Shown: positions 1 through 59,087 of the stretch, piece after piece
Numbering within the stretch: position 1 is the stretch's first letter
Layout of the letters: every line of letters starts with the position of its first letter
Assembly (NCBI GenBank): GCA_036924085.1
Contig: JAVGWX010000004.1
Coordinates: forward strand, 80,430,941-80,494,940
Length of the DNA: 64,000 nucleotides
Origin: Ariolimax columbianus
Taxonomy: Eukaryota > Mollusca > Gastropoda > Stylommatophora > Arionidae
Direction: 5' to 3'
Position numbers and translations under genes: made by a program
The notes under the pieces: model-generated
What the model was told of the DNA's origin: nothing
The model's database searches: none
The model's input: the letters and a program-made list of their open reading frames with translations, nothing else

Positions 1-475
1 CCAAGCCATTTGTCATTGGTTGTTTTAAGCCCCAAAGTGATAGAGGGGTTAAGAGTGTCTGACTAACATGTCTGGGGGTTAGGCTCATGTTGTTCTGAGA
101 CTTACTCCAGTCTACTCAGTTGTAAATGGGTACCTGACTTGCAGCTAGAGAAGGCAATGCAGTGACGAAGGAAATTAGTCAACTCAGGTCCCCTAATCCA
201 AGATTACATATAATGAAACCCATAACAGTGTGCCCCCTGATAGTAGCATCTTCTATGGCAGAGACTCCTAGACTGGAGTTTATGAAGAGTCAATAGGGGG
301 ACAGTGAATATAATATTGATTTCAAAAATAGGCTTCCATGAGTAGATTTTAAATTGAACTTCTAGTGGATTTTGAGAGTTGGCTTCAGAGGGTCATCTGT
401 TATTAATGTCAGGGATCATCTATCATTGATTTCAGGGGATCCATATATCACTGTCTTCATAGGGCCATTCATCAT
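1..475. other. intronic or 3' flanking sequence, no gene seen
   Basis: No coding signal. The stretch around 115-200 (ttgtaaatgggtacctg) resembles the body of the SINE at 5829-6107 and the fragment at 62390, so a decayed SINE piece is likely. From about 360 the sequence grades into degenerate versions of the 47-bp satellite. Confidence 0.4.
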
Positions 476-808
476 TGACTTCAAATGGCCATCTATTACC
501 ACAACTTAGAGCAATCTATCACTGACTTCATATGACCATCTATTACCATAACTTAGGGTAATCTATCACTGACTTTATATGACCATCTATTACTACAACT
601 TAGGGCAATCTATCACTGACTTTATATGGCCATCTATTACAACATAGGGAAATCTATCACTGATTTTATATGGCCATCTATTACCACAAATTAGAGCAAT
701 CTATCACTGACTTTATATGACCATCTATTACTACAACTTAGGGCAATCTATCACTGACTTTATATGACCATCTATTACCACAACTTAGGGAAATCTATCA
801 CTGACTTT
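476..808. repeat. 47-bp satellite, left part
   Basis: Units of about 47 bp built on catctattaccacaactt and gggaaatctatcactgac. Units vary at a few positions (cttaggg/cataggg, ggcc/gacc). The array is cut at 809-815 by a long retrotransposon and resumes at 5666. Confidence 0.95.
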
Positions 809-815
809 ATATGGC

Positions 816-1215
816 TACGGAAAACCAGCTCAAATCGAGAGGAGCCGCAGACACTTTGGTTCACGTACCAGGCTGATAAGCCAAGGGCGCGAGGCTACCA
901 TGTGGGGGATTACGGCCGAACCCTTGAAAGCCGCAATCCCGCCCAAAATCTCAGCACCACTGCAATGGGAGGCTCCTACATGCTCGGGACCTGGGGCTTG
1001 CGCCCCAGCCCTATCAGGTAGTGCCACAGTAAGAGGTCCTTGCCGCCCGCAAATCAAAGCGGGCGGAAAACTGCTTGATACTCACCCTATACGGCGATGG
1101 GGTGCGAAAAACACCAACCAAAGACTTAGAACCTGGTCGGGGTGTCGAAAACAGTAGAGCAGCCACCACACTGTGAACTGTCAAGACTCAAACCACTGAC
1201 CATGAGAGTTGTCCG
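816..1215 (+). rRNA. 28S rRNA 3'-end sequence captured as retrotransposon leader
   Basis: Not a functional rRNA. From about 834 (cgagaggagccgcag) through ggctgataagcc, gcgaggctacca, ggggattac, caatcccgccc, tcggggtgtcg and cagtagagcagcc to about 1215 the order follows the last part of 28S, including the terminal-region landmarks. It is diverged by substitutions throughout. A matching leader lies at 50985-51425, and both carry ggccgaac where I remember gactgaac in typical 28S. Confidence 0.88.
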
Positions 1216-1730
1216 CACACCAGGCGATCAACATCTCTGTGACATTACCAGGCTTGTCCTCTGGCTAAATGCACTCCGGTTACGATATCTACCTCTGTAC
1301 GCTATCAGCCATAACTATCATGCTGGACGCAGAAGAGATGCAGACCAGCGGACATTGCACACCTGCCCCACTGTGTCAACACCCCAGGTGGCGGGGAATG
1401 CTAGGCGTACCATCCCTGCATAGAAGCCAAGAAAATAAAGGGAAAAAGAGATACCCCACTCACATGCAAATGCTACGTTTCTGGCAGGACGTGACGATCC
1501 TGGGATACAGACACACTGGACTGCCTCTCTTCCGGGTAAACCAGTCCATCTCATATATCACATACCATCATTGCACCCTATAGACACGAGTAGTGAAGAC
1601 TCGATAGTCTGGAAAGACAACTTCCATAGGAGAGAAAACTCTGATCGTAAACAACTGCTGCCTTGCAGATAGGCTGGGGACAGCCAAAGGCTAAGGAGGG
1701 CATCCCTACAGAAACGCCTGTTGAAATCGG

Positions 1731-4700
1731 ATGCACGGGGCCGCAAGCCTAACAAAACAGTGCAACGTAAATCACAGTATGATGGCAGCACAACCTATTC
1801 GAAAAACGTATGGCGCTCATCCTGAGGAGACCCGCCAGGCAGCGATAGCGCCGGGCCTCACGCCTCGAAGGGGCCCACCCTTGACTACTGGTGGTCACCC
1901 ACCCATGTGTCGTGGAGTCAAGGCACATGGCTATGGGGTAACGTCTATTGGCCAAAACTTCAAGACCCTCAGAATACTACAGTGGAATGCGGAGGGAGTC
2001 ATTAACAAAAAACTTTCCCTAACACACCACCTGCATGAAGGTAAGATTGACGTGGCATGTATCCAGGAAACGCACCTCAACAATAACCATAAATTCTCAA
2101 TCAGAGGATACCAGACCTTCCGTCTAGATAGAGAAGGTCACAAAGGAGGGGTCCTGATACTGACCAGAAACAGCATACCGAGTAGCGCGGTACCTGTCAA
2201 TCACACCGGACAAGCAGAAATTGTAGGAGTTGACATAATGGCTCTAGAGACGAAACTCCGCATTTTCAATCTGTACGGACCACCAAACAGAGACCTATCG
2301 CTCTCGAGTATGGAGGTCAGAGACTCCAACTGCATAGTAGTTGGAGATTTCAACAGCCACTCGGAGAGATGGGGATACTCTGACACAGACAGTAGAGGTG
2401 ACGAAGTGGAAGATTGGGAGATAGATGCAAATCTCTCCCTAATCAATAGGCCGGAGGATAGCCCTAGCTTCTATTCAAGAACATGGCATACCACCTCGAC
2501 TCCAGATTTGGCCTTCTCCACACAGGACATACACTATAAAATAGACCGCCAGGTGCTAAACCAACTGGCAGGTAGCGACCACAGGCCGATCAGGCTAACC
2601 ATTGACATGGAAGTAGGCCCACAGGAAACAAAACCGCTCCCACGTTGGAATTACAAACGAGCCGACTGGGACAGATTTGCAATCCTGACAGATGGGCTGT
2701 GTGAAACCATCAACACACGAAACACCAAAATGAAGCCCATGGTAGAGAGCCTAAGCAAGGCAATAATGCAAGCCGCCACTGAAACCATCCCAAGAGGAGC
2801 TAGGAAAAACTATAAGCCCTACTGGAATGATGAGTTACAGAAAGTGGAAGATGCAGTAACTAATGCGAGGAACATGGCAGAACGAGAAAAATCCGTGGAG
2901 GCAAACATCGCCCTCAAAGCCGCCGCGGCGAAGTACAAACACACTCTCAAGCAAACAGCAAGAGAAAGTTGGAAAAATAAAACGGAAAGTTTAAACCTGG
3001 ACAAAGAAGGGAACAAGCTATGGAAGCTAGTCAGAGCCATGAACGACGAAACCCCGTCAAATAAACAAATTACTATCAAGCAAGGCGAGAACTTGATCAC
3101 AGGTAAGAAAGCCGCAAACGCCTTTGTCGATCACTATGCCAGAGCAAACCACATCGAGGTCCCTGCAGATAAGCATACAGACATTAGCGAAGAGCTAAAG
3201 GGGCACGAAAACATAAATACGGCTCCTGAAGAGCACATGATGGCCAAACTAACAATGCGCGAAATGGAAGAGGCTATGAGAACACTAAAGAGAAGGAAAT
3301 CTCCCGGAAAAGACGGGATAACAAACGAAATGCTGATGGGGCTGGGCCAAACAGCGAAGGAAAAACTACTATCAGCCCTGAACCAAAGCTGGAAAAGGGG
3401 TATTGTACCCCAGGCATGGAAAGATGCAATACTGGTACCAGTACCAAAAACAGGAAAGGACAAAACAGATCCGAATGGATACAGGCCCATAAGCCTACTG
3501 AGCTGTGTCGGCAAGCTGATGGAACGGATGATAAACACCAGACTGATGTGGCATCTGGAAGAAAAACGAATACTAATTCCACAGCAAGCCGGCTTTAGAC
3601 AGCACAGATCCACTGAGGACCAGGTCATCCTCATAGCCCAGGAGATAGAAGATGCCTACCAGGCACAGAAACACACAGTAGCTGTTTGGGTGGATCTGGA
3701 AAAGGCATTTGACAAAGTCTGGAAGGATGGACTTAGAGTCAAGCTAAGAAGAAGTGATGTTTGTGGGAAGATGTACAAGTGGATCAACCACTACCTCAAA
3801 CAAAGAACGGCCAGAGTCCAAGTACAAGGGCAGATGAGCAAAAAGGTGACACTCGAGCAGGGAGTACCCCAAGGGGGAGTACTGTCACCCACACTCTTCC
3901 TGGTATATATAAACGATATTACAGAGAATATACCAAGAAGAGTCCATAGCTCAATGTTTGCAGACGATCTGGCTATGTGGACCTCTGAAAAGAATCTCAC
4001 CATAGCAAGAAATCGGATGCAAACGGCCCTAACATCGCTGGAAGAGTGGGCGAACTCATGGCTGGTCAAAATAAACGAGGAGAAAACCACATGCACAATA
4101 TTCTCGCTCTCATTAAAACCCCAAAGTACCAAATTAAGCCTAAATGGCAAAATCCTGCAGCCAAACGACAACCCAACCTATCTGGGAGTCACATTTGATC
4201 GGCGCATGACATGGAAAAGTCAGATTGAGAGAAACCGAATGAAAGCCAGAGAAAGAATGGCGATCATGAGGAAACTTGCTGGCACAAGCTGGGGAGCAGA
4301 CGAAGGCATACTAAAGAAACTGTACACTGGAAGAGTGAGACCAGTTCTCGAGTATGGCATCGCGGCATGGACAACAGCAGCGAAGGCGAACTTCGATAAA
4401 GTTAACAAACTTCAAAACCAAGCTATGAGAATCATAACTGGTGGAATGAAGTCAACGCCAATTGTAGAACTTGAAAAGATTACAAAACTGCAATCCATGA
4501 CCGACAGAAGAGACTGCAGAGCCCAGCTGCAGTCAGAGAAACTCCGAAGACTGACGGACCATCCAATGTACCAGAGGCTAAACAATTTGGGAACTGGGAA
4601 ACTAAAGCGGAGAAACTTTGCAGAAATAGCCAAAGCAAAGATGCACGAAGATCCCATAAACGCACTAACAACACCAAAACCCATCACTACTGTACGAAAA

Positions 4701-5627
4701 CCTACTTGGAGGCAGGATATATTTCCAGAGGTGGTAGAAAATATACCAGGTATTGCAAACAAAAACTGCCAGACCGAAAAAGAAAGGAGAGACACTACCT
4801 TAAGCTTCATAACGAAAAGCTACCCAAGCATGGACTGGACCCATGCATACACCGACGGTTCTGTAACAAACACTACACAGAACGGAGGGGCAGGAGCATT
4901 CCTGAACCTACCAAATGGCAGAAAAATAACACTGTCATTCGCTACTGGTAAGTACACGAGCAATTTCAGAGCAGAGGCAGAGGCACTGAGGGCGGCAGTG
5001 GAAGAAATGGTAACACACAGTGAAAATGAGAGCCATATAGTCCTGCTGACAGATGCTCTCGAAGTAGTCACAGCGCTAAAAAGCCAGAAAAACACTGAGC
5101 TTAATGACTTAAGAGCAGCACTCTGCAAACTGTGCCAACAGTCCGCACCAAAAAGGGTAGTGGTACAGTGGGTTCCGTCACACTGCAACATCCAAGGCAA
5201 CGAGGAGGCAGACAGACTGGCAAAAGAAGGTGCAAGGCTACCACAAATAGATACCAGTATGACGTACGAAGAGTCAAAACGGCTTATCAAAGCCAGGTAC
5301 ATGTCCAAATGGGAAACCGAACATACTGGTTACACCAAAAACGATGCCTATTACCAGTTGAACCGAAGAGAGCAGGTCGTTGTCTTCAGACTTCGCACTG
5401 GCCACAACAGACTGAGGTACCACCTCTTCAACAAATTGAAGATAGGGTGTACCGACGAATGCCCGTGCGGTACTGGTAAAATGACCACTGAACATCTGCT
5501 GCAGAACTGCCCGACATACGAGGATCAGAGAGAGCAGATGTGGCCATTGCCAGTGGAACTGCAAGACAAGCTCTATGGTAGTGGCGAGAGTCTCAGGATG
5601 ACCGCCGCTTTTTTTTCGAGAAAATAA
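1731..5627 (+). CDS. retrotransposon A polyprotein: endonuclease, RT, RNase H
   Basis: 1298 codons from the first ATG. Leader homology with the element at 50731 runs to about 1770, so translation more likely starts at the paired ATGs 1779/1782 (A at -3, G at +4 for the second). Residues about 80-290 form an APE-type endonuclease (QWNAEG, CIQETHL, GDFNSHSERWGY, SDHRPI). Residues about 520-860 are the RT (SPGKDGI, GFRQHRSTEDQ, VDLEKAFDKVW, QGVPQGGVLSP, FADD at 743-746). Residues about 1035-1175 are RNase H type I (YTDGS with Asp 1042, FRAEAEAL, LLTDAL, HCNIQGNEEADRLA). A C-C-H-C knuckle follows (CPCGTG...EHLLQNC, from 1244). All catalytic positions look present. It would nick DNA and copy its own mRNA by target-primed reverse transcription. 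Confidence 0.95.
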   Translation: MHGAASLTKQCNVNHSMMAAQPIRKTYGAHPEETRQAAIAPGLTPRRGPPLTTGGHPPMCRGVKAHGYGVTSIGQNFKTLRILQWNAEGVINKKLSLTHHLHEGKIDVACIQETHLNNNHKFSIRGYQTFRLDREGHKGGVLILTRNSIPSSAVPVNHTGQAEIVGVDIMALETKLRIFNLYGPPNRDLSLSSMEVRDSNCIVVGDFNSHSERWGYSDTDSRGDEVEDWEIDANLSLINRPEDSPSFYSRTWHTTSTPDLAFSTQDIHYKIDRQVLNQLAGSDHRPIRLTIDMEVGPQETKPLPRWNYKRADWDRFAILTDGLCETINTRNTKMKPMVESLSKAIMQAATETIPRGARKNYKPYWNDELQKVEDAVTNARNMAEREKSVEANIALKAAAAKYKHTLKQTARESWKNKTESLNLDKEGNKLWKLVRAMNDETPSNKQITIKQGENLITGKKAANAFVDHYARANHIEVPADKHTDISEELKGHENINTAPEEHMMAKLTMREMEEAMRTLKRRKSPGKDGITNEMLMGLGQTAKEKLLSALNQSWKRGIVPQAWKDAILVPVPKTGKDKTDPNGYRPISLLSCVGKLMERMINTRLMWHLEEKRILIPQQAGFRQHRSTEDQVILIAQEIEDAYQAQKHTVAVWVDLEKAFDKVWKDGLRVKLRRSDVCGKMYKWINHYLKQRTARVQVQGQMSKKVTLEQGVPQGGVLSPTLFLVYINDITENIPRRVHSSMFADDLAMWTSEKNLTIARNRMQTALTSLEEWANSWLVKINEEKTTCTIFSLSLKPQSTKLSLNGKILQPNDNPTYLGVTFDRRMTWKSQIERNRMKARERMAIMRKLAGTSWGADEGILKKLYTGRVRPVLEYGIAAWTTAAKANFDKVNKLQNQAMRIITGGMKSTPIVELEKITKLQSMTDRRDCRAQLQSEKLRRLTDHPMYQRLNNLGTGKLKRRNFAEIAKAKMHEDPINALTTPKPITTVRKPTWRQDIFPEVVENIPGIANKNCQTEKERRDTTLSFITKSYPSMDWTHAYTDGSVTNTTQNGGAGAFLNLPNGRKITLSFATGKYTSNFRAEAEALRAAVEEMVTHSENESHIVLLTDALEVVTALKSQKNTELNDLRAALCKLCQQSAPKRVVVQWVPSHCNIQGNEEADRLAKEGARLPQIDTSMTYEESKRLIKARYMSKWETEHTGYTKNDAYYQLNRREQVVVFRLRTGHNRLRYHLFNKLKIGCTDECPCGTGKMTTEHLLQNCPTYEDQREQMWPLPVELQDKLYGSGESLRMTAAFFSRK

Positions 5628-5665
5628 TGGTTACTGTCTGACTGTGTACGCAGAAGAAGAAGAAG

Positions 5666-6810
5666 ATATGGCCATCTATTACCACAACTTAGGGAAATCT
5701 ATCACTGACTTTATATGGCCATCTATTACCACAACTTAGGGAAATCTATCACTGACTTTATATGACCATCTATTACTACAACTTAGGGAAATCTATCACT
5801 GCCTTATATATGACCATCTATTACTACAGTGGAGCCGCGTATCGCAGTGGTTAGCGCGCTTACTTCGCATCTGAGTGGTCCTTGGTTCATTCCCCAGTTG
5901 AGGTGGTAATGTTTTTTTCAGACCGCAATGGCTCCCAGGTCGACCCAGCCTTAAATGGGTACCGGTTCAGTCCGGGAAGTAAAAGCGGCGAGGGAGAGGA
6001 GATGGCTACCGCCCTCAAATAGCTGAGCCTTTGAAATGTGAAATCGCTAACACCTCACACCCCTACGCCAGTAATGCTATGGGATACTTTACTTTACTTT
6101 ACTTTTACTATTACTACAACTTAGAGCAATCTATCACTGACTTTATATGACCATCTATTACCACAACATAGGGAAATCTATCACTGACTTTATATGGCCA
6201 TCTATTACCACAACAAAGGTAAATCTATCACTGACTTTATATGGCCATCTATTACCACAACATAGGGAAATCTATCACTGACTTTATATGGCCATCTATT
6301 ACCACAACTTAGGGAAATCTATCACTGACTTTATATGGCCATCTATTACCACAACTTAGGGAAATCTATCACTGACTTTATATGACCATCTATTACTACA
6401 ACTTAGTGCAATCTATCACTGACTTTATATGACCATCTATTACTACAACTTAGGGCAATCTATCACTGACTTTATATGGCCATCTATTACCACAACATAG
6501 GGAAATCTATCACTGACTTTATATGGCCATCTATTACCACAACTTAGGGAAATCTATCACTGACTTTATATGACTATCTATTACCACAACATAGGGAAAT
6601 CTATCACTGACTTTATATGGCCATCTATTACTACATAGGGAAATCTATCACTGACTTTATATGGCCATCTATTACCACAACTTAGGGAAATCTATCACTG
6701 ACTTTATATGGCCATCTATTACCACAACTTAGGGTAATCTATCACTGACTTTATATGGCCATCTATTACCACAACTTAGGGAAATCTATCACTGACTTAC
6801 AGGGCCATCT
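5666..6810. repeat. 47-bp satellite, right part
   Basis: Continuation of the left array, same 47-bp unit, interrupted once by a SINE (5829-6107). Units right of 6120 are more uniform than those left of 808. The array fades at about 6800, roughly 120 bp from the MADD donor at 6930. A C homopolymer of about 18 lies at 6891-6908. Confidence 0.95.
5829..6107 (+). mobile_element. tRNA-derived SINE with CTTTA tail
   Basis: A 279-bp insertion in the satellite flanked by the perfect 11-bp repeat ctattactaca (5818-5828, 6108-6118). The A-box-like tcgcagtggttagcg and B-box-like ggttcattccc lie in tRNA-like spacing near the 5' end. The body contains aaatgggtacc and the tail is repeated ctttactttactttac. 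A second, older copy is at 22225-22490. Confidence 0.9.
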
Positions 6811-9499: not shown

Positions 9500-10330
9500 G
9501 GTTGAAGTACGCAATTTTACATGGTATGGGAATGTATGAAGATTGTCTGGGTTGACCAATTTTACATGGTATGGGAATGTATCAAGATTGTCTGAGTTGA
9601 CCAATTTTACATAGTATGGGAATGTATGAAGATTGTCTGGGTTGACCAATTTTACATGGTATGGGAATGTATTAAGATTGTCACGGTTGACCAATTTTAC
9701 ATGGTATGGGAATGTATCAAGATTGTCTGGGTTGACCAATTTGACATGGTATGGGAATGTATGAAGATTGTCTGGGTTGACCAATTTTACATGGTATGGC
9801 AATGTATCAAGATTGTCTGGGTTGACCAATTTTACATGGTATGGGAATGTATCAAGATTGTCTGAGTTGACCAATTTTACATGGTATGGGAATGTATCAA
9901 GATTGTCTGGGTTGACCAATTTTACATGGTATGGGAATGTATCAAGATTGTCTGAGTTTACCAATTTTACATAGTATGGGAATGTATGAAGATTGTCTGG
10001 GTTGACCAATTTTACATGGTATGGGAATGTATGAAGATTGTCTGGGTTGACCAATTTTACATGGTATGGGAATGTATGAAGATTGTCTGGGTTGACCAAT
10101 TTTACATGGTATGGGAATGTATTAAGATTGTCACGGTTGACCAATTTTACATGGTATGGGAATGTATGAAGATTGTCTGGGTTGACCAATTTTACATGGT
10201 ATGGGAATGTATGAAGATTGTCTGGGTTGACCAATTTGACATGGTATGGGAATGTTTGAAGATTTTCTGGGTTGACCAATTTTACATGGTATGGGAATGT
10301 ATAAAGATTTTCTGGGTTGACCAATTTTAC
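9500..10330. repeat. 45-bp minisatellite, about 18 units
   Basis: Unit of 45 bp with atgggaatgtatgaagattg and gttgaccaattttacatggt. Variants swap tctgggttga, tctgagttga and tcacggttga in patches, suggesting block duplications. Because 45 is divisible by three, open frames run through it on both strands; these are artefacts of the period. Confidence 0.97.
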
Positions 10331-14984: not shown

Positions 14985-15310
14985 TGCTCCATGTACATGC
15001 GCAGCTCAGACACAAAATGGCGACCATGCTGACAGAGTACAATCAAAGAACAGATTGCTGTTGTGCGTTTTTTTAATGGGGCAAAAAGACTTTCTGCAAG
15101 GGATATTCATAAAGAAGTGCTTCCTGTTTATGGTGAGAAGTGTTTGTTGCATAAAGCAATGTATAACTGGGTCGATTAACTTTCTCAAGGGCATACAAAA
15201 TTGCTGATAAAGTCCGACCTGGTCGACCTGTTCAAATTGAGACATACAACTCGATTAACTCAGAAGAATTTTAACCAACTAGCGTGGTATCTTCTTGAGC
15301 ATCCACCTTA
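14985..15310 (+). pseudogene. mariner-like transposase remnant
   Basis: With small gaps it reads SKEQIAVVRFF, GAKRLSARDIHKEVLPVYGE, KCLLHKAMYNWVD, then after a deletion LTQKNFNQLAWYLLEHPPYSP. The pattern (IH..V..VYGE, LEHPPYSP) is typical of mariner transposases. Stops and a large internal deletion make it non-functional. It runs directly into the 26-bp array. A related piece is at 52850-53100. Confidence 0.8.
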
Positions 15311-18300
15311 CAGCCCCACTTGAGCATCCACTTTACAGCCCCACTTGAGCATCCACTTTACAGCCCCACTTGAGCATCCACCTTACAGCCACCACTTGAG
15401 CATCACCTTACAGCCCCACTTGAGCATCTACTCTACAGCCACCACTTGAGCATCCACTCTACAGCCACCACTTGAGCATCCACCTTACAGCCACCACTTG
15501 AGCATTCACTCTACAGCCACCACTTGAGCATCCACTCTACAGCCACCACTTGAGCATCCACTCTACAGCCACCACTTGAGCATCCACCTTACAGCCACCA
15601 CTTGAGCATCCACTCTACAGCCCCCACTTGAGCATCTACTCTACAGCCACCACTTGAGCATCCATTCTACAGCCACCACTTGAGCATCCACTCTACAGCC
15701 ACCACTTGAGCATCCACTCTACAGCCACCACTTGAGCATCCACTCTACAGCCACCACTTGAGCATCCACTCTACAGCCACCACTTGAGCATCCACTCTAC
15801 AGCCACCACTTGAGCATCCACTCTAGCCCCACTTGAGCATCCACTCTACAGCCACCACTTGAGCATCCACTCTAGCCCCACTTGAGCATCCACTCTAGCC
15901 CCACTTGAGCATCCACTCTACAGCCACCACTTGAGCATCACCTTACAGCCCCACTTGAGCATCCACTCTACAGCCACCACTTGAGCATCCACTCTACAGC
16001 CACCACTTGAGCATCCACTCTACAGCCACTACTTGAGTATCACCTTACAGCCCCACTTGAGCATTCACTCTACAGCCACCACTTGAGCATCCACTCTACA
16101 GCCACCACTTGAGCATCACCTTACAGCCCCACTTGAGCATCCACTCTACAGCCACAACTTGAGCATCCACTCTACAGCCACCACTTGAGCATCCACTCTA
16201 CAGCCACCACTTGAGCATCCACTCTACAGCCACAACTTGAGCATTCACTCTACAGCCACCACTTGAGCATCCACTCTACAGCCACCACTTGAGCATCCAC
16301 TCTACAGCCACCACTTGAGCATCCACTCTACAGCCACCACTTGAGCATCCACTCTACAGCCACCACTTGAGCATCCACTCTAGCCCCACTTGAGCATCCA
16401 CTCTACAGCCACCACTTGAGTATCACCTTACAGCCCCACTTGAGCATTCACTCTACAGCCACCACTTGAGCATCCACTCTACAGCCACCACTTGAGCATC
16501 ACCTTACAGCCCCACTTGAGCATCCACTCTACAGCCACCACTTGAGCATCCACTCTACAGCCACAATTGAGCATCCACTCTACAGCCACAACCTGAGCAT
16601 CCACTCTACAGCCACCACTTGAGCATCCACTCTACAGCCACCACTTGAGCATCACCTTACAGCCCCAATTGAGCATCCACTCTACAGCCACCACTTGAGC
16701 ATCCACTCTACAGCCACCACTTGAGCATTCACTCTACAGCCACAACTTGAGCATCCACTCTACAGCCACCACTTGAGAATCCCCTCTACAGCCACCACTT
16801 GAGCATCCACTCTACAGCCACCACTTGAGCATTCACTCTACAGCCACCACTTGAGCATCCACCACTTGAGCATCCACTCTACAGCCCCACTTGAGCATCC
16901 ACTCTACAGCCACCACTTGAGCATCCACTCTACAGCCACCACTTGAGCATTCACTCTACAGCCACAACTTGAGCATCCACTCTACAGCCACCACTTGAGC
17001 ATCCACTCTACAGCCACCACTTGAGCATCCACTCTACAGCCACCACTTGAGCATCCACTCTACAGCCACCATTTGAGCATCCACTCTACAGCCACCACTT
17101 GAGCATTCACTCTACAGCCACCACTTGAGCATCCACTCTACAGCCACCACTTGAGCATCCACTCTACAGACACCACTTGAGCATCACCTTACAGCCCCAC
17201 TTGAGCATCCACTCTACAGCCACCACTTGAGCATCCACTCTACAGCCACAATTGAGCATCCACTCTACAGCCACAACTTGAGCATTCACTCTACAGCCAC
17301 CACTTGAGCATCCACTCTACAGCCACCACTTGAGCATCCACTCTACAGCCACCACTTGAGCATCACCTTACAGCCCCAATTGAGCATCCACTCTACAGCC
17401 ACCACTTGAGCATCCACTCTACAGCCACCACCTGAGCATTCACTCTACAGCCACAACTTGAGCATCCACTCTACAGCCACCACTCCCACTCTACAGCCAC
17501 CACTTGAGCATCCACTCTACAGCCACAACTTGAGCATTCACTCTACAGCCACCACTTGAGCATCCACCACTTGAGCATCCATTCTACAGCCCCCCTTGAG
17601 CATCCACTCTACAGCCACCACTTGAGCATCCACTCTACAGCCACCACTTGAGCATTCACTCTACAGCCACAACTTGAGCATCCACTCTACAGCCACCACT
17701 TGAGCATCCACTCTACAGCCACCACTTGAGCATCCACTCTACAGCCACCACTTGAGCATCCACTCTACAGCCACCACTTGAGCATCCACTCTACAGCCAC
17801 CACTTGAGCATTCACTCTACAGCCACCACTTGAGCATCCACTCTACAGCCACCACTTGAGCATTCACTCTACAGCCACCACTTGAGCATCCACTCTACAG
17901 CCACCACTTGAGCATCCACTCTACAGCTCCCACTTGAGCATCCACTCTACAGCCACCACTTGAGCATCCACTCTACAGCCACAACTTGAGCATCCACTCT
18001 ACAGCCCCACTTGAGCATTCACTCTACAGCCACCACTTGAGCATCCACTCTACAGCCACCACTTGAGCATCACCTTACAGCCCCACTTGAGCATCCACTC
18101 TACAGCCACCACTTGAGCATCCACTCTACAGCCACCACTTGAGCATCCACTCTACAGCCACAACTTGAGCATTCACTCTACAGCCACCACTTGAGCATCC
18201 ACTCTACAGCCACCACTTGAGCATCCACTCTACAGCTCCCACTTGAGCATCCACTCTACAGCCACCACTTGAGCATCCACTCTACAGCCACCACTTGAGC

Positions 18301-18840
18301 ATCCACTCTACAGCCACCACTTGAGCATCCACTCTACAGCCCCACTTGAGCATCCACTCTACAGCCACCACTTGAGCATCCACTCTACAGCCACCACTTG
18401 AGCATTCACTCTACAGCCACCACTTGAGCATCCACTCTACAGCCACCACTTGAGCATCCACTCTACAGCCACCACTTGAGCATCCACTCTACAGCCACCA
18501 CTTGAGCATTCACTCTACAGCCACCACTTGAGCATCCACTCTACAGCCATCACTTGAGCATTCACTCTACAGCCACCACTTGAGCATCCACTCTACAGCC
18601 ACCACTTGAGCATTCACTCTACAGCCACCACTTGAGCATCCACTCTACAGCCACCACTTGAGCATCCACTCTACAGCCACCACTTGAGCATTCACTCTAC
18701 AGCCACCACTTGAGCATCCACCACTTGAGCATCCACTCTACAGCCATCACTTGAGCATTCACTCTACAGCCACCACTTGAGCATTCACTCTACAGCCACT
18801 ACTTGAGCATTCACTCTACAGCCACCACTTGAGCATGTAT
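15290..18840. repeat. 26-bp minisatellite, about 135 units
   Basis: Unit of 26 bp, cttgagcatccactctacag plus ccacca, with 23-25 bp variants (ccttacagcccca, tctagcccca) and occasional insertions (cttgagcatccaccacttg). The leftmost units match the adjoining mariner remnant best. Variant types recur in blocks, pointing to repeated segmental duplication. It is the largest array in the window and lies in a MADD intron. Confidence 0.97.
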
Positions 18841-28799: not shown

Positions 28800-30380
28800 T
28801 TTTCATTTGCAGTTTCAATAGCACTGGTTTTACATGATGAGGTTGCTTGTACCATGCAAACCCTTGTTAGTCACCTTTTATGACATGCTTAGAAGGTTAC
28901 AGTTATCCTATTCTTTCTATGTCAAGCAGAAGTCTAGGATAGACAGAGACAGATAGGCTGTGTAAATTGGAAGTTATCATAATCCTTTCTAATTTTCATT
29001 CCAATACTTACTCTCCGTGTCCTGGACACCACGTTAGACATCGTGTTTGCAATGCTTGGCCACATGGATTGCCATGTTGTTTCCTTTCAACATGTGATTC
29101 ATATTGCATGTTTCCAGTTTCCAGAAGGTAGTCTGGTTTGTGTTGTTCATGTCACATTATCTCTGTATCTGGGGGATAGTGAGGTCTGGGCTTGACATCC
29201 CGCTTGTTGAAGGAAAGTAAAGCGTCTATTATAGCCTCTCCTTTCCAGGTGTAGAGATTGCCGCTGGATTCACTGTTCAGCTTGCCGGGAAGGAGTTTCC
29301 ATGCCAATGGTCTCTCCTACATTATTGTGTCCCCAGCAGCACAAATATGAGGGGCCCCCTGTTTCTTATAGGGCCTGCTGTGCGACGTGACCGAGTACCC
29401 GACGGTATAACTGGGCGGGCAGATTAGGCTCATTACCCTTGGTTGGCAGCCAATCTATGAGAAGGTAAACTTTGACTCTAAACCCAAGTAGACAAAGCTC
29501 GTAATCTGTTCAGGCCGTTCGCCTAGGAGATAAGGAACTCTGATTTTAAACCCACAAGTGCCAGGAAGTGCTGGCTAGTCCTGGGATGATGAGAGTATCA
29601 TCAGATGCCTCGAGTAACTAGCATCAGTGGGCAACGACTCCAGTGCCTTGTGGAAATCTTGGGAGAGGGTAGGGCTACGGTAGTAAACACAGAAAGAAAA
29701 TCTGGATTGGTAGCACCTAAGGCGGATGGTGTCAAAATTGCGAACTCATTCCGGCAGCTACTGCAGCTGAGCTGTTGCCATATTGTCATGCTTTGCATTC
29801 CTTTGGATTACACCAGTGAGGCCGAGAGGGGGATCCTGCAGTTTGGGCAGCCCAGGGTCTCCATATTCAGCGCCCAGGCTTAATTACGTCCTCACAGGGC
29901 GCCATGCGCATGGTCTACAGAGACAGTGAGATGCCGATGATCTCTGTATCTTGATCTCTATTTCTTCCTGCATTGTGACACACCATTTCAAAGTCTATTT
30001 AGTGACATCCGTGTTGCGTAAAGCAAGTCCAGACTCAGGTTCATTCCGCAATTCGATCCAGGGAACCTGAGTCAGTTCATTCAATTTTTCAATGCAGCGT
30101 TTTCTGGGACTAGTCTGTATAGACTGTGTTGACTAAGAAATTTCAACTAGATTTAAGTCTTGTGCTTTGCACTTGGTGTACAAACATAGGGTGTCTTGGG
30201 TCATTCAATTGTTACTCTCTTTCGATTTCTGATGCGACACTTCTCTGTGTCTCAAGTGGTGTTACGTCAATTATGGGGTATATTTTTAAGCTGGAGTAGG
30301 TTTTAGACACACTTTCATTCACTGCTGTGTCAATAACTTTGACATGTGCAGAGTATTTCCAATCTGGCATGGTGTTCAAT
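28800..30380. other. intronic, unclassified
   Basis: No gene recognised. 29290-29900 is more GC-rich than its flanks and contains tgggatgatgagagtatcatc and ggtagggctacggtagtaaac. An open frame at 29605-29883 has no recognisable domain. It may be the 5' part of an unknown retroelement. Confidence 0.4.
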
Positions 30381-30384
30381 CAGC

Positions 30385-31010
30385 TTGACCTTTGTAACTA
30401 CCACTGACAATCCCCTTGACCTTTATAGCTGCTTCTGACAATCACCTTGGCCTTTATAGCTGCCACTTACAACCACCTTCACCTTTTTAACTGCCAATGA
30501 CAATTACCTTGGCTTTTATAACTGCCACTGACAACCACCTTGACCTTTGTAACTACTACTGGCAATCACCTTGGCCTTTATAGCTGCCACTGACAACCAC
30601 CTTCACCTTTTTAACTGCCAATGACAATCACTGTGGCCTTTGTAACTGCCACTGACAATCACCTTGACCTTTGTAACTGCCACTGACAGTCATCTTGACC
30701 TTTGTAACTGCCACTGACAATCACCTTGGCTTTTATAACTGCCCCTGACAATTACCTTGGCTTTTATAACTGCCACCGACAATCACCTTGGCTTTTATAA
30801 CTGCCACTGACAATCACCTCAGCCTTTGTAACTGCCACTGACAATCACCTTGGCTTTTATAACTGTCACTTACAATCACCTTCACTTTTTTAACTGCCAC
30901 TGACAACCACCTTGACCTTTGTAACTGCCACTGACAATCACCTTCACTTTTTTAACTGCCACTGACAACAATCTTGACCTTTGTAACAGGCACCAATAAT
31001 CACCTTGGCC
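30385..31010. repeat. 30-31 bp minisatellite, about 20 units
   Basis: Units of caccttgacctttgtaactg and ccactgacaat, with a second type ggcttttataactgcc interspersed. Moderately diverged. Confidence 0.95.
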
Positions 31011-31034: not shown

Positions 31035-32290
31035 TTCTTATACTGGTTTAAAAGACTCTGCAGAGTCTGTAAACAACCAATTTCTTTTACATTTCCTTTC
31101 TCTAAAAGCTATGTGCACCCAATCTATTTTTAAATGCATTAATTGTCCCTGATCAGGCACTACTTCCCGTGGCAATGCATTGCAAGCATTCTTCTTCTTC
31201 TTCTTCGTACGCAGTCAGACAGTAACCATTAGGTTTTCTAAAAAAGCGGCGGTCATCCTGAGGCTGTCGCCACTGCCATAGAGCTTGTCTTGCAGTTCCA
31301 CTGGTGATGGCCACATCTGCTCTCTCTGATCCTCGTATGTCGGGCAGTTCTGCAGCAGATGTTCAGCGGTCATTTTACCAGTACCGCACGGGCATTCGTC
31401 GGTACCACCTATCTTCAATTTGTTGAATAGGTGGTACCTCAGTCTATTGTGGCCAGTGTGAAGTCTGAAGACAACGACCTGCTCTCTTCGGTTCAACTGG
31501 TAATAGGCATCGTTTTTGGTGTAACCAGTATGTTCGGTTTCCCATTTGGTCATGTATCTGGCTTTGATAAGCCGTTTTGACTCTTCGTACGTCATACTAG
31601 TATCTGTTTGTGGTAGTCTTGCACCTTCTTTTGCCAGTCTGTCTGCCTCCTCGTTGCCTTGGATGTTGCAGTGTGATGGGACCCACTGTACCACTACCCT
31701 TTTTGGTGCGGACTGCTGGCACAGTTTGCAGAGTGCTGCTCTTAAGTCATTAAGCTCAGTGTTTTTCTGGCTTTTTAGCGCTGTGACTACGGCGAGAGCA
31801 TCTGTAAGCAGGACTATATGGCTTTCATTTTCATTGTGTGTCACCATTTCTTCCACTGCCGCCCTCAGTGCCTCTGCCTCCGCTCTGAAATTGCTTGTGT
31901 ACTTACCAGTAGCGAATGACAGTGTTATTTTTCTGCCATTTGGTAGGTTCAGGAATGCTCCTGCCCCTTCGTTCTGTGTAGTGTTTGTTACAGAACCGTC
32001 GGTGTATGCATGGGTCCAGTCCATGCTTAGGTAGCTTTTCGATATGAAGCTTCATTGCAAGCATTCACCACTCTGACTAAAAAAATTGTTTCCAAATATC
32101 TAATTTGGACCTTTCTTTAGTTAATTTGTATCCATGCCCTCTTGTTCTTGTAGGTGGTTGGATTTTGAAAAACCTGTTATAGTCTAATTGATCTTTTTCT
32201 TTGATTATCTTATAAACCTGTATTGTCACTTCAAATTCTTCTCTTTTCTAGACACTGTAGACTGGTAACTTTTCTCATAACTATTGTAAC
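31035..32290 (-). pseudogene. CR1-like LINE 3' end, split by an insertion
   Basis: Reverse strand. It starts with actggtttaaaagactctgc (3' UTR), then the DAHSF-type C-terminus at about 31110, interrupted at 31192 and resuming at 32053 with the SQRV/DIRK region and further upstream RT extension to about 32290. The host sequence cattgcaagcattc is duplicated on both sides of the insertion. Confidence 0.85.
31192..32052 (-). mobile_element. 5'-truncated copy of element A family
   Basis: 861 bp corresponding to about 4801-5665 of element A. Flanked by a perfect 14-bp duplication cattgcaagcattc (31178-31191, 32053-32066). The frame 31215-32024 (269 codons) is open through RNase H (YTDGS, TDALAVVTALK, EEADRLAKEGA) and the knuckle CPCGTG...LLQNC. 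It ends in TTC repeats on the plus strand (GAA tail). A young, clean example of target-primed insertion. Confidence 0.93.
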
Positions 32291-34019: not shown

Positions 34020-34250
34020 AAAACCCTGCCTTTAGATTGTAATTTGTTAATATGTTTGCTAAGGATGTCAAGAGTGCCCCTGCACATGCCATCACAGTGC
34101 AGACGAACAACATGATGTCATAATTGCAATTAAAACATGGCCGCCCCACTATTGACATGCACCACAGAGGAGCAGCGCTCTGTTGTCAGTTTTTTTAGCA
34201 GCATTGGGGTGACACCTATATAAATTCATCGTCAAATGAAAGTCAAGTGA
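34020..34250 (+). pseudogene. mariner-like transposase N-terminal remnant
   Basis: Reads MAAPLLTCTTEEQRSVVSFF, then IGVTPI, stop, IHRQMK. The EEQR...RFF...GV...IHR pattern is the mariner N-terminus. It is cut at about 34250 by an element A family copy. Confidence 0.7.
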
Positions 34251-35165
34251 AACAAGAACAGCCAGACTGAAAAAGAAAGAAGAGATACAACCCTGAGGTA
34301 CATAACGAAAAACTACCCAAGCATGGACTGGACCCATGCATACACCGACGGCTCTGTAACAAACAAAACACAGAACGGAGGGGCAGGGGTATTCCTGAGC
34401 CTACCAAATGGCAGAAAAACAACACTATCAGTGGCAACTGGAAAATACTAAAGCAATTTCAGAGCGGAGGCAGAGGCACTGAGGGCTGCAGTAGAAGAAA
34501 TGGTGACATGCAAAAGAAATTAAAGCCATATAGTCCTGTTTACAGATGCCCTGGCCGTAGTCACAGCACTAAAATGCCAGAAAAATACTGAACTTAATGA
34601 TTTAAGAGCAGTACTCTGTCAACTATGCCAGCAGTCCGTACCAAAAAGAGTAGTGGTACAGTGGGTTCCATCCCATTGTAACATCCAAGGCAACGAGGAG
34701 GCAGACAAACTGGCAAAAGAAGGTGCAAGACTACCACAACCAGACCCTAGTGTGACCTACGAAGAGTCAAAAAGGCTTATTAGAGCTAGATACATGACCA
34801 AATGGGAAACAGAACATACTGGCTACACAAAAAACGATGCCTATTACCAGTTGAACAGAAGAGAGCAGGTCGTGGTCTTCAGACTTCGCACTGGCCACAA
34901 TAGACTGAGGTACCACCTATTCAATAAATTGAAGATAGGTGGCACTGACGAATGCACATGCGGTACTGGGAAAATGACCGCTGAACATCTGCTGCAAAAC
35001 TGCCCGACATACGAGGATCAGAGAAAGCAGATGTGGTCATCACCAGTGGCAACACTAGACAAGCTCTATGGAAGTGTCGACAGCCTCAGGATGACCGCTG
35101 CTTTTTTAAAAAAAATACAGGTTGACGTCTGACAGCCTACGAAGAAGAAGAAGAAGAAGAAGAAA
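34250..35165 (+). mobile_element. 5'-truncated copy of element A family, with stops
   Basis: Corresponds to about 4766-5665 of element A. Contains at least two early stops (near 34448 and 34520), then an open stretch 34653-35132 with HCNIQGNEEADKLAKEG and CTCGTGKMTAEHLLQNC. Long GAA tail at 35140-35165. It is older than the 31192 copy judging by substitutions and stops. Confidence 0.92.
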
Positions 35166-37139: not shown

Positions 37140-38540
37140 TGTAAATGAGTGGAGCATGATTAGGTGTTATGGTCAGTGGTTTGTTGAGGTAACCTGGAGA
37201 ATGTTTAGGTGTTATGGTCAGTGGTTTGTTGAGGTAAACTGGAGGATGTTTAGGTGTTATGGTCAGTGGTTTGTTGAGGTAACCTGGAGGATGTTTAGGT
37301 GTTATGGTCAGTGGTTTGTTGAGGTAAACTGGAGGATGTTTAGGTGTTATGGTCAGTGATTTGTTGAGGTAACCTGGAGGATGTTTAGGTGTTATGGTCA
37401 GTGGTTTGTTGTAGCCGCCCCTAGAGGATGTTTAGGTGTTATGATCAGTGGTTTATTGAGGTAACCTGGAGGATGTTTAGGTGTTATGGTCAGTGGTTTG
37501 TTGAGGTAACCTGGAGGATGTTTAGGTGTTATGGTCAGTGGTTTGTTGAGGTAACCTGGAGAATGTTTAGGTGTTATGGTCAGTGGTTTGTTGAGGTAAC
37601 CTGGAGGATGTTTAGGTGTTATGGTCAGTGGTTTGTTGAGGTAACCTGGAGGATGTTTAGGTGTTATGGTCAGTGGTTTGTTGAGGTAACCTGGAGGATG
37701 TTTAGGTGTTATGGTCAGTGGTTTGTTGAGGTAACCTGGAGGATGTTTAGGTGTTATAGTCAGTTGTTTGTTGTAGCCACCCCTAGAGGATGTTTAGGTG
37801 TTATGGTCAGTGGTTTGTTGAGGTAACCTGGAGGATGTTTAGGTGTTATGGTCAGTGGTTCGTTGAGGTAACCTGGAGGATGTTTAGGTGTTATGGTCAG
37901 TGGTTTGTTGAGGTAACCTGGAGGATGTTTAGGTGTTATGGTCAGTGGTTTGTTGTAGCCCCCCCTAGAGGATGTTTAGGTGTTATGGTCAGTGGTTTGT
38001 TGAGGTAACCTGGAGGATGTTTAGGTGTTATGGTCAGTGGTTTGTTGAGGTAACCTGGAGGATGTTTAGGTGTTATGGTCAGTGGTTTGTTGAGGTAACC
38101 TGGAGGATGTTTAGGTGTTATGGTCAGTGGTTTGTTGAGGTAACCTGGAGGATGTTTAGGTGTTATGGTCAGTGGTTTGTTGAGGTAACCTGGAGGATGT
38201 TTAGGTGTTATGGTCAGTGGTTTGTTGTAGCCACCCCTAGAGGATGTTTAGGTGTTATGGTCAGTGGTTTGTTGAGGTAACCTGGAGGATGTTTAGGTGT
38301 TATGGTCAGTGGTTTGTTGAGGTAACCTGGAGGATGTTTAGGTGTTATGATCAGTGGTTTGTTGAGGTAACCTGGAGGATGTTTAGGTGTTATGATCAGT
38401 GGTTTCATGAGGTCCTCCTAGAGGATGTTTAGGTGTTATGATCAGTAGTTTGGTGAGGTCGTCCTAGAGGATGTTTAGGTGTTGATAAGTTGTCTACTGA
38501 GGTTACCCTGAAGGATGCGTAGGTGTTGATAAGTGGTTTG
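37140..38540. repeat. 45-bp minisatellite, about 30 units
   Basis: Unit ggtgttatggtcagtggttt, gttgaggtaacctggaggat, gttta. A variant ending gttgtagccacccctagagg appears four times (near 37408, 37771, 37953, 38226), a rough higher-order pattern. Units right of 38400 drift to a form related to the array at 41550-41995. Confidence 0.97.
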
Positions 38541-38929
38541 CCAAGACCAATAATGGAGGATTTTTAGGTGTTATGATCAGTGGTTTCAAAATCACAAACT
38601 CTGAGATTAGGACAAAGGCAAGGTTAATTACATCTAATGGGATGTATTACTGTAATTTTGATGACCTGAGGAGTGAATAGCCATTGCTAGCTTTGAAAGT
38701 CTTCGTAGTACAGCACAAACATCAAACTAAGAGCATACAAGAGCTGCATACTTTCTGTCCTTCTACATGGTACGGAGTGTTAGAGAGTCACAGAAAAAGA
38801 GACATAAAAATTGTCAACTTTCCACAACAACATGTCTAAGAAAGATTCATTTAATCTTCTGGCCGAACACCATCACAAACCGAGAGCTGCTTGACTGAAG
38901 TAATCAAGAAGATGTTCGCAGCATCACAA

Positions 38930-41549: not shown

Positions 41550-41995
41550 TCATTTTATGATCAGTGGTTTGATGAGGTCATCTTGGAGGATGTTTAGGTT
41601 TCATGATCAGTGGTTTGATGAGGTCATCTTGGAGGATGTTTAGGTTTTATGATCAGTGGTTTGATGAGGTCATCTTGGAGGATGTTTAGGTTTTATGATC
41701 AGTGGTTTGATGAGGTCATCTTGGAGGATGTTTAGGTTTTATGATCAGTGGTTTGATGAGGTCATCTTGGAGGATGTTTAGGTTTTATGATCAGTGGTTT
41801 GATGAGGTCATCTTGGAGGATGTTTAGGTTTTATGATCAGTGGTTTGATGAGGTCATCTTGGAGGATGTTTAGGTTTTATGATCAGTGGTTTGATGAGGT
41901 CATCTTGGAGGATGTTTAGGTTTCATGATCAGTGGTTTGATGAGGTCATCTTGGAGGATGTTTAGGTTTTATGATCAGTGGTTTGATGGGGTCTC
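41550..41995. repeat. 46-bp minisatellite, about 10 units
   Basis: Unit tgatcagtggtttgatgagg, tcatcttggaggatgtttag, gtttta. Nearly identical units. Clearly related to the 45-bp array at 37140-38540 (shared gtcagtggttt..gagg.....ggaggatgtttaggt) although two MADD exons lie between them. Confidence 0.96.
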
Positions 41996-48689: not shown

Positions 48690-48746
48690 TCCCGTGGATC
48701 TTCTGATAAAAATTCCCCTGATCTCTGGGTAGTGGCATTGGACTCC
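48690..48746 (+). repeat. SINE family U head-side fragment
   Basis: gtggatcttctgataaaaat and ccctgatctctgggtagtgg match 44165-44215 (complement). It stops exactly where 18S sequence starts (48747), marking the 5' junction of the chimeric insertion. Confidence 0.6.
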
Positions 48747-49463
48747 CAGGCGCGCAACTTACCCACTCCCGGCACGGAGGGGTAGTGACGAAAAATAACA
48801 AAACGGGACTTTTTCGAGGCCCCGTAATTGGAATGAGTACACTTTAAACCCTTTAACGAGGATCTATTGGAGGGCAAGTCTGGTGCCAGCAGCCGCGGTA
48901 ATTCCAGCTCCAATAGCGTATATTAAAGTTGTTGCAGTTAAAAAGCTCGTAGTTGGATCTCAGGCGCAGGCGGGCAGTCCGGCTCACGCCGGTTCACTGC
49001 CCGTTGTCTCCTGCCCTACCGTCTGCCGGCTCTCTCCCGCGGGTGCTCTTCGCTGAGTGTCCTGAGTGGCCAGCGCGTTTACTTTGAAAAAATTTGAGTG
49101 TTCAAAGCAAGCCTCGGCTGCCTGAATAATGGTGCATGGAATAATGGAATAGGACCTCAGTTCTATTTTGTTGGTTTTTGGAACTGGAGGTAATGAATAA
49201 CAGGGACAAACGGGGGCATTCGTATTGCGGCATTAGAGGTGAAATTCTTGGATCGCCGCAAGACGAGCTACTGCGAAAGCATTTGTCAAGAATGTTTTCA
49301 TTAATCAAGAACGAAAGTCAGAGGCGATAGGACGATCAGATACCGTCGTAGTTCTGACCATAAACGATGCCGACTAGCAATCCGCAGGAGTTGCTTCGAT
49401 GACTCTGCGGGCAGCTTCCGGGAAACCAAAGTGTTTGGGTTCCAGGGGAAGTATGGTTGCAAA

Positions 49464-49503
<40 letters not shown>

Positions 49504-49568
49504 ATGGAGCCTGCGGCTTAATTTGACACGCCAACACTGAAATGATTGACAGGTCGAGAGCACTTTCG
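48747..49568 (+). rRNA. partial 18S rRNA, retrotransposed, joined to 28S
   Basis: Not a working gene. It runs from caggcgcgcaacttacccac through cgaggccccgtaattgg, gtgccagcagccgcggtaa, attccagctccaatagcg, the V4 region, gaggtgaaattcttggatcg, cttaaaggaattgacgg and gcctgcggcttaatttgac to attgacaggtcgagagcac. Roughly the middle half of 18S. Well conserved up to about 49525, after which about 25 nt around the caacacgggaaac region are missing or scrambled. It ends inside the helix after attgacag, where 28S begins. Confidence 0.96.
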
Positions 49569-49572
49569 TTGG

Positions 49573-49695
49573 GTCTAATAGGGAACGTGTGCTGGAATTA
49601 TACCCTCGGAAGATATGTCAGTTTTACCCTACTAATGACAGGGCGTTGCTACGGTAGTCCTGCTAAATCCGAAAGGAATCGCAGGTTTCAGACAC
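49573..49695 (+). rRNA. 28S rRNA segment fused to 18S
   Basis: tctaatagggaacgtgtgct, cggaagatatgtcagtttta, ccctactaatgacag, gttgctacggtagtcctgct, aggaatcgcaggtttcagac: a late 28S segment. The 18S side ends and the 28S side begins within cgttgggtctaatagg, the same junction as in the monomers at 50741 and 50905. Confidence 0.94.
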
Positions 49696-50730
49696 AAAGC
49701 AAAGATGCACGAAGATCCCAAACAACTAACAACACCAAAACCCATCACTACTGTACGAAAACCTACCTGGAGGCAGGAAATATTTCCAGAGGTGGTAGAA
49801 AATATACCAGGTATTGGAAACAAAAACTGCCAGACTGAAAAAGAAACGAGAGATACTACCCTAAGCTTTATATCGAAAAACTACCCAAGCATGGACTGGA
49901 CCCATGCATACACCGACGGCTCTGTAACAAACACTACACAGAATGGAGGGGCAGGAGCATTCCTGAACCTACCAAATGGCAGAAAAATAACACTGTCATT
50001 CGCTACTGGTAAGTACACAAGCAATTTCAGAGCGGAGGCAGAGGCACTGAGGGCGGCAGTGGAAGAAATGGTGACACATAAAGAAAATGAAAGCCATACA
50101 GTCCTGCTTACAGATGCTCTGGCCGTAGTCACAGCGCTAAAAAGCCAGAAAAACACTGAGCTTAATGACTTAAGAGCACTACTCTGTCAACTATGCCAGC
50201 AGTCCGCACCAAAAAGGGTAGTGGTACAGTGGGTCCCATCACACTGCAACATCCAAGGCAACGAGGAGGCAGACAGACTGGCAAAAAAAAAAAGGTGCAA
50301 GACTACCACAAACAGATACTAGTATGACGTACGAAGAGTCAAAACGGCTTATCAAAGCCAGATACATGACCAAATGGGAAACCGAACATACTGGTTACAC
50401 CAAAAACAATGCCTATTACCAGTTGAACAGAAGAGAGCAGGTCGTTGTCTTCAGACTTCGCACTGGCCACAATAGACTCAGGTACCACCTATTCAACAAA
50501 TTGAAGATAGGTGGAACCGACGAATGCCCGTGTGGTACCGGGAAAATGACCGCTGAACATCTGCTGCAGAACTGCCCGACATACGAGGATCAGAGAGAGC
50601 AGATGTGGCCATCACCAGTGGAACCACATGACAAGCTCTATGGCAGTGTCGACAGCCTCAGGATGACCGCTGCTTTTTTCGAAAAAATAATGGTTACTGT
50701 CTGACTGCGTACGAAGAAGAAGAAGAAGAA
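49696..50730 (+). mobile_element. element A family 3' part, joined to rRNA
   Basis: Corresponds to about 4632-5665 of element A. The junction with 28S falls at caaagcaaag, where cagacac meets the element. Open to 50322 through RNase H (YTDGS, FRAEAEAL, LLTDALAVV, NEEADRLAK), then a frameshift in an A run (50284-50293), then open 50324-50704 with CPCGTGKMTAEHLLQNC. GAA tail 50712-50730. Probably one chimeric insertion together with 48747-49695. Confidence 0.9.
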
Positions 50731-50740
50731 GACACTTGGT

Positions 50741-58420: not shown

Positions 58421-58429
58421 AACTCCAAT

Positions 58430-58880: not shown

Positions 58881-58923
58881 ACTACTGTACTATGACAAAG
58901 ACCTTCAACTCATAGACAATTAC

Positions 58924-59082
58924 CTTGTGTTCCAATATAATGGCAGTGAGAACTTTGAGGCAGGTTTCAGCGCCTAGCAGTTCCAGGGGCAGATGTAGGG
59001 GAAAATCAACCAGGCTGAATCGAGTGTTGTCAGGCAGGGCAAACAACAGAGGCTGCTGAAGTTCTCTAGGCAATATATGGAC
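58924..59082 (-). CDS. MADD: MADD exon, start of cDENN
   Basis: 53 codons, phase 0 to 0. The acceptor is ctctttag and the donor is gtaatt. It begins [10 protein letters not shown] and holds [16 protein letters not shown] and ends in LEHK, the segment just before the most conserved cDENN core in MADD. It is the most 5' exon found. Two unrelated minisatellites press against it, one ending about 40 bp beyond the donor and the other running into the acceptor region. Confidence 0.95.
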
Positions 59083-59087
59083 CTAAA

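Follow-up and report, generated by a model that had tools for sequence, protein, structure and literature searches.

A dispersed LINE family of Ariolimax columbianus headed by pre-rRNA from the apparent rDNA transcription start

Why would a LINE that lies in satellite DNA begin with ribosomal RNA sequence? The question is raised by a 64,000-nt stretch of the Ariolimax columbianus genome (the window, by which we mean the whole stretch that was analysed), in which a sequence-only reading had noticed about 400 nt of 28S rRNA at the 5′ side of an element with an intact ORF. Using cmscan, we found that positions 818-1210 indeed match the 3′ end of 28S (Rfam LSU_rRNA_eukarya model, positions 3007-3399 of 3401, E 1.7e-10), with a score of 49.8 bits that is just below the gathering score of 50, the match being absent at the gathering threshold. 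A second match in the window lies at 51008-51417 (model positions 3005-3399, 144.3 bits), and a chance likeness is rejected. The ORF downstream displays Pfam endonuclease, reverse transcriptase, and RNase H domains (residues 83-284, 575-822, and 1039-1168, respectively), and the window element is a LINE of the I superfamily type with an apurinic endonuclease, whose family also shows target-site duplications (TSDs), 5′ truncation, and a fixed 3′ end. Among named proteins, those nearest to the ORF belong to two gastropods, Littorina saxatilis and Batillaria attramentaria; unnamed matches are closer (66-67%). Searches of NCBIfam and PDB sequences with the LINE protein returned generic relatives of its reverse transcriptase, endonuclease, and RNase H, nothing closer, and a search of viral contigs for relatives gave three pattern matches, none of which was confirmed. 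The features of the window are collected in Table 1.

Table 1. Coordinates of the LINE copy, its ORF-less sibling, and related fragments in the window
Feature	Position	Strand	Remark
Satellite, 47-bp unit, hosting the window copy	460-813		5′ side of the insertion
5′ target-site duplication atatggc	809-815	.	Within the 47-bp satellite; read from the sequence
Diverged 28S rRNA 3′ end, 5′ part of the truncated window copy	816-1210	+	cmscan LSU
Non-rRNA leader, ~515 nt, common to window element and ORF-less sibling	1211-1730	+	
Single ORF, 1298 aa: AP endonuclease, reverse transcriptase, RNase H	1731-5627	+	
Short 3′ UTR with (GAA)n end	5628-5665	+	Read from the sequence
3′ target-site duplication atatggc	5666-5672	.	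Read from the sequence
3′ fragment of the same LINE family	31190-32052	-	95.6%
3′ fragment of the same LINE family	34250-35157	+	86.7%
18S-derived head of the ORF-less sibling	48716-49560	+	cmscan SSU, 48716-49444, 497.8 bits
18S/28S chimeric module of the sibling	49561-49695	+	
LINE 3′ fragment nested in the sibling head	49696-50729	+	92.9% identity to 4631-5666
Tandem chimeric modules of the sibling, period 164	50730-51015	+	
28S 3′ end of the sibling, less diverged than that of the window element	51008-51417	+	cmscan
Leader and short 3′ tail of the sibling, without ORF	51418-52032	+	
3′ fragment of the same LINE family	61309-61659	-	89.2%

The element is inserted in a satellite, as had been supposed, with copies of atatggc on either side. 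The window is otherwise very rich in minisatellite arrays with units of ~26-52 bp, which occupy 460-813, 5666-6810, 9512-10330, 15294-18836, 30377-31007, 37150-38586, 41553-41993, 53147-53540, and 58421-60134. At 5829-6100, the satellite holds an insert that looks by eye like a tRNA-headed SINE (gtggttagcgcgc...ggttcattccc, tail tttactttacttt).

The second 28S match belongs to a sibling of the window element. Both 28S stretches end at the 28S 3′ end and then enter a common non-rRNA leader, with 79.5% identity between 814-1769 and 51016-51994, which agrees with the claim that the copy at ~50.7 kb bears the same 28S leader. The claim that position 50731 starts a second ORF-bearing element had to be abandoned: it is interior to an ORF-less copy that resumes there after a nested LINE 3′ fragment. 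This fragment is flanked by AGACAC (49690-49695 and 50730-50735), a duplication that we read from the sequence. Clear 18S likeness begins at ~48750 and the sibling ends near 52032. L069, a copy of the sibling type found elsewhere in the genome, lacks any open frame of 300 codons and does not match the LINE ORF. In its want of coding capacity, the sibling type agrees with an rRNA-headed SINE, whereas the window element with its 1298-aa ORF does not.

Is the rRNA an inherited part of the family or a one-off capture? A 34-mer spanning the 28S/leader junction has 1,919 exact occurrences in the genome, so that the junction is not private to one insertion and a one-off capture is rejected, in agreement with the view of the rRNA as inherited. 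A 38-mer at the leader/ORF start and a 35-mer from the middle of the leader occur 4,712 and 4,430 times, respectively. In the first 50 Mb of contig C1, the ORF-start 38-mer lies 509-517 nt past the junction in 40 of 41 junction copies, and the exact junction is present in 40 of 100 ORF-start copies. The 60 without it are probably explained by truncation and sequence drift, and some may reflect a second start internal to the leader. The expectation that copies of the ORF would carry 28S thus holds in the sense of about two thousand junctions at one place; the count on C1 (40/100) does not extend it to nearly all ORF-reaching copies.

To see how far the rRNA extends, we turned to longer copies. 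A search of the genome (2.29 Gb) with the 985-nt head gave 1,204 candidates; all 40 that were scored match over 970-985 of the 985 nt, and 30 were fetched (L001-L030), picked by likeness to the head, which makes this sample uninformative on the rarity of headless copies. One of them, L003, is the window copy itself. In the other 29, rRNA-like sequence extends upstream over lengths that range from ~20 nt (L005) up to all of the 1,500 nt that were read, many stopping at differing points, as expected from 5′ truncation. Position 816, which had been taken for the 5′ end of the element, is therefore a truncation point, immediately preceded by the TSD at 809-815. In the longest relatives, a head of ~3.4 kb precedes the ORF and consists, in order, of 635 nt of 5′ETS, 18S from nt 1 to ~1240, 18S/28S modules, the 28S 3′ end, and the 515-nt leader. 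The 18S starts at its first base (model position 1 is L035:1622) and is unbroken to ~nt 1240, while the diverged modules contain three to four fusions of an 18S piece with a 28S piece. The description of the leader as 28S was thus correct for the 28S end but not for the rRNA as a whole, since longer copies add 5′ETS and 18S. As for the ~515-nt leader proper, the rDNA spacer is one possible origin.

The 5′ end of the full head is uniform. Among eight upstream pieces, L031, L033, L035, and L037 share ATCTGGGGTAG as their 5′ end and L038 has it with one changed base. Of the remaining three, two (L034, L036) are truncated and one (L032) is inverted in its 5′ part. A second genome search with a spacer query yielded 1,792 candidates. 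We scored 40 and first fetched 10, all of them full-head loci that start exactly at ATCTGGGG. Nine have mutually unlike flanks; the exception is L059, identical with the L013/L035 copy, whose start is preceded by an 18S piece. The 15 loci with the common 5′ end (10 + 5) hence represent 14 distinct copies. These copies are not rDNA units themselves, since the 18S runs into the same modules in 20/20 full-head loci and into the ordinary 18S 3′ half in none. In the L013 copy, the extra 18S fragment (L035:685-986) ends in ctttaac at its join to ATCTGGGG; by eye, the same fragment and join recur, inverted, in the 3′ flank of L002 (L040), a possible further extension of the head.

Direct TSDs of 10-12 nt border both ATCTGGGG and (GAA)n in the full-length copies L001, L011, L016, and L065, which means that the whole unit was inserted at once. 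Among 20 copies in which TSDs were sought, they abut the 5′ end in six, namely L001, L011, L016, and the truncated L018, L020, and L021, which thereby resemble the window copy. In L005, some short repeats made of element sequence separate the TSD from the 5′ end, and in five others (L006, L010, L012, L014, L030) the repeats are longer or offset, some in tandem arrays. Within the stretch read, no TSD was found in the remaining eight (L002, L004, L007, L008, L009, L013, L015, L022), the search in L004, L007, L008, L009, and L015 having been made without a further upstream piece. The 3′ end is the same (GAA)n in 20/20 copies with a fetched 3′ flank. Flanks differ and insertions lie on many chromosomes, which is not the fixed rDNA target of R2-type elements.

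Where in rDNA does the head begin? A search with an 18S 3′ end motif found 30 exact places and led to small rDNA contigs. In the rDNA unit of contig C222, a 301-nt piece upstream of 18S reads ...gacccccggaatgtatatt|ATCTGGGGTAG, the bases around the start being ...gtatatt|ATCTGGGG. Downstream of the start, the element head equals this rDNA at 132/132 bases; this comparison with true rDNA covers 132 nt of spacer, and the 18S and 28S parts of the head were identified via Rfam models (the sole rRNA gene stretch fetched from an rDNA array reads N). Upstream of the start, the flanks of the 14 distinct copies agree with rDNA over just 0-2 nt, and BLAST of these copies against the 169 nt upstream of the rDNA start revealed no likeness, so the rDNA promoter is not carried. 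The 301-nt piece is matched at 100% in all 40 scored places out of 1,435 candidates, in arrays on C50 and C67 where matches are often 12.15-12.3 kb apart. The 5′ 31-mer of the head has 396 exact occurrences in the genome, and the 100 listed are all on C1-C5. It is preceded by the seven upstream rDNA bases in 110 occurrences, and by other bases in 286. The 100 of those 110 that were listed are all on small contigs (C50-C308, none on C1-C49), with a spacing of mostly ~12.2 kb. On C1 up to 111.6 Mb, the exact 28S/leader junction lies 2,492-2,933 nt past the TSS end in 12 of 14 copies, these being the ones among 24 listed TSS copies that are within range of listed junctions.

We are therefore highly confident that this LINE family has pre-rRNA as its head, from the rDNA start position onward. 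We infer that this position is the Pol I start site, because of where it lies, of the AT-rich bases just upstream, and of the uniform, RNA-like end. The arrays themselves show some irregularities. Units are ~12,150 nt in C67 and C190 against ~12,280 nt in C50, C86, C100, and C222, which suggests two rDNA array types or alleles. Spacing in C67 is irregular, with intervals of 17.0 and 29.1 kb that correspond to one or two 12.15-kb units plus ~4.8-4.9 kb, near the length of the window element (816-5665), and this excess could be due to insertions within rDNA. In the same array, one promoter is inverted, at 137033.

How, then, are these copies made? A full-length insertion, from 5′ETS through (GAA)n, is one unit between TSDs and is without the rDNA promoter. 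Since the checked copies elsewhere lack that promoter, their RNA would come from sources joined to rDNA, through Pol I, or else the head would be gained by switching of the reverse transcriptase. In the first scenario, source copies would be joined through 18S homology to rDNA units, and RNA polymerase I would start the RNA at the rDNA promoter, which would give it a fixed 5′ end. The linkage to rDNA would supply the promoter that is absent from insertions elsewhere, and would hold the 5′ part to the uniformity of rDNA as the remainder of the element diverged. By target-primed reverse transcription, the LINE protein would then insert copies of this pre-rRNA-LINE RNA at ordinary places in the genome, and the ORF-less sibling would use the same head and presumably the same enzyme. 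This scenario explains the fixed 18S-to-module run, the hundreds of starts at +1, and the uniform head in two lineages. That a dispersed, recently active LINE replicates mainly via a chimeric pre-rRNA started in this manner at the rDNA promoter has, in our judgment, an even chance of being right. A role of the rRNA in transcription, proposed from the letters, is plausible; the rDNA promoter itself is absent from the 14 distinct copies that were checked.

The comparison of two lineages bears on this directly. L066, a copy of the sibling type measuring 3.5 kb from start to tail, differs from L059 at 0/620 positions in the ETS and 1/1155 in 18S, and at 75/334 positions, plus seven gaps, in the modules. 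Because the spacer is identical and the 18S nearly so between lineages 22% apart in their modules, the 5′ part is, judging from these alignments, renewed from rDNA or pre-rRNA. Matches to the spacer query were ranked by likeness to one spacer, a bias toward identical spacers, which cannot by itself account for a spacer shared between lineages so diverged. In six autonomous copies, substitutions per kb are 9.2 in the spacer (plus 4.3 gaps), 0.9 in 18S, 5.1 in the modules, 2.7 in the 28S end, 1.0 in the leader, and 1.7 in the ORF part. The high variation of the spacer is as if it had been drawn from several rDNA variants, and both patterns of divergence are consistent with recombination with rDNA or with copying of pre-rRNA. 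Counting against sources transcribed by Pol I, no source copy within an rDNA unit was seen in the array sequence that was read, and the modules too vary more than the ORF (5.1 vs. 1.7 per kb).

The strongest competitor, which we consider quite possible though somewhat doubtful, is that the head is added during insertion. The element RNA could then come from any promoter, and the reverse transcriptase, once it had arrived at rRNA-like sequence or at its template's 5′ end, would switch to abundant pre-rRNA and read on to its natural 5′ end. Template switching onto pre-rRNA would give much the same ends, and direct signs of it are present in heads that contain internal transcribed spacers. A search for 5.8S gave 53,434 candidates, of which 40 were scored and 10 fetched, and 10/10 of these loci have surroundings that resemble the element: ITS1-5.8S-ITS2 is fused, at points that vary between loci, to modules, 28S end, leader, or ORF. 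Two of them, L071 and L078, continue to the ORF; L078 has a near 30-nt target duplication, while none was detected by eye in L071. In L076, ITS2 is joined to ATCTGGGG, the spacer start, as is the 18S piece in L013. The template-switch route explains both the ITS1-headed copies and the join of ITS2 to that start. L073 and L074 are near-identical copies within 99.3% identical stretches 86 kb apart (C4:128.06 and 128.15 Mb), each bordered by tandem repeats (shifts of 48 and 96 bp), as if a segment with an ITS1-headed element had been duplicated.

The 5′ ends of the ITS1 heads are also informative. We aligned 34 loci to a reference, L100, and could read the end in 21: seven fall within 3 nt (1455-1457, values that are one above the L100 coordinate), six within 9 nt (1501-1509), and eight elsewhere. 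Of the other 13, five aligned elsewhere, seven ran beyond the stretch read or were the reference itself, and one was unmatched; by eye, the ends of three of the five (L077, L079, and L096) coincide with those two ITS1 sites. A uniform simulation placed seven of 21 ends within 3 nt in 0/20,000 draws, for a sample that is not neutral because part of the loci was found with a query starting near the second site. Bunching this sharp needs fixed RNA ends, and the two sites look like products of ITS1 cleavage during rRNA processing, which would be their natural source. This resemblance to pre-rRNA cleavage sites speaks for switching. On the other side, the 18S-to-module run that is the same in 20/20 loci favours inheritance or a fixed source over fresh switches, hundreds of copies start at the TSS, and switching leaves unexplained how promoterless copies are transcribed. 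The rDNA-source route and template switching may also act together.

Two further explanations fare less well. An old head could have been captured once and simply inherited, with a Pol II promoter inside it that happens to start at ATCTGGGG. This would account for the uniform 5′ end and for one head common to autonomous and ORF-less copies, but simple inheritance does not yield both a 5′ end exactly on the rDNA start position and a spacer that is identical, with 18S nearly so, between lineages so far apart in their modules, and we hold it to be improbable. That the copies are artefacts of assembly, or a LINE with ordinary rRNA pseudogenes next to it, is scarcely credible: rRNA repeats are hard to assemble, yet direct TSDs surround whole units in four full-length copies, the (GAA)n end is the same in 20/20, and the same junctions recur at many loci, the 28S/leader junction in the exact copies counted above.

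Taken in full, the reading based on rDNA-joined sources holds that a genome-wide LINE took over the rDNA promoter. Its RNA would be a Pol I-made, perhaps nucleolar, partly processed pre-rRNA stemming from hybrid rDNA-unit sources, the head would be refreshed by recombination or homologous template switching, and intermediates cut in ITS1 would be mobilised too. For this whole chain, we would put the chances at slightly under one half.

Parts of this picture have counterparts. In SINE28, which is derived from 28S, and in other SINEs headed by small RNAs, an rRNA head is joined to a LINE tail. The ORF-less sibling is like SINE28 in this respect, in contrast to the window element, which is autonomous, and to the family head, which starts at the 5′ end of pre-rRNA. 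As an internally deleted LINE derivative, the sibling also resembles the SIDEs (short internally deleted elements), for which the opening of the abstract names no rRNA head (PMC6740152). R2 RNA is described as being made as part of the pre-rRNA transcript (PMC8789037, PMC3414825). The present family is likewise a LINE, and its 5′ end is at the rDNA start position; R2, however, inserts at a fixed 28S site, whereas here there are many chromosomal sites and 5′ETS, 18S, and 28S end are the element's own sequence. Pokey, a piggyBac DNA transposon of Daphnia, has rDNA spacer repeats (IGS and ITS2) in its 5′ noncoding region, and its IGS repeats are alike across lineages, which its authors explain by exchange with rDNA (PMC3849761). 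The rDNA-derived 5′ part that stays alike across diverged lineages is Pokey-like, but Pokey is a DNA transposon with IGS and ITS2 repeats, while here an EN-RT-RNase H ORF follows pre-rRNA from the transcription start. Human LINE-1/28S rRNA chimeras are reported at 18 loci, with 28S mostly in sense at the LINE 5′ end and a median of 269 nt (PMC13174262); those are single events, in contrast to a propagating family with a 3.4-kb head. In the text available of a survey of gastropod non-LTR elements, "rRNA" and "28S" occur once each, in a cited title (PMC11203168). No propagating LINE with a pre-rRNA head appears in the titles or abstract beginnings among the matches listed from the open-licence PMC literature.

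LINEs that insert away from promoters must bring one or find one. If true, the scenario favoured here would be another solution to this problem, in which an element rides on rDNA transcription while inserting elsewhere. Its copies would be genomic fossils of pre-rRNA 5′ ends, namely the start site and the two sites in ITS1, and contact between a LINE and pre-rRNA, perhaps along with rRNA processing sites, would become readable from sequence alone.
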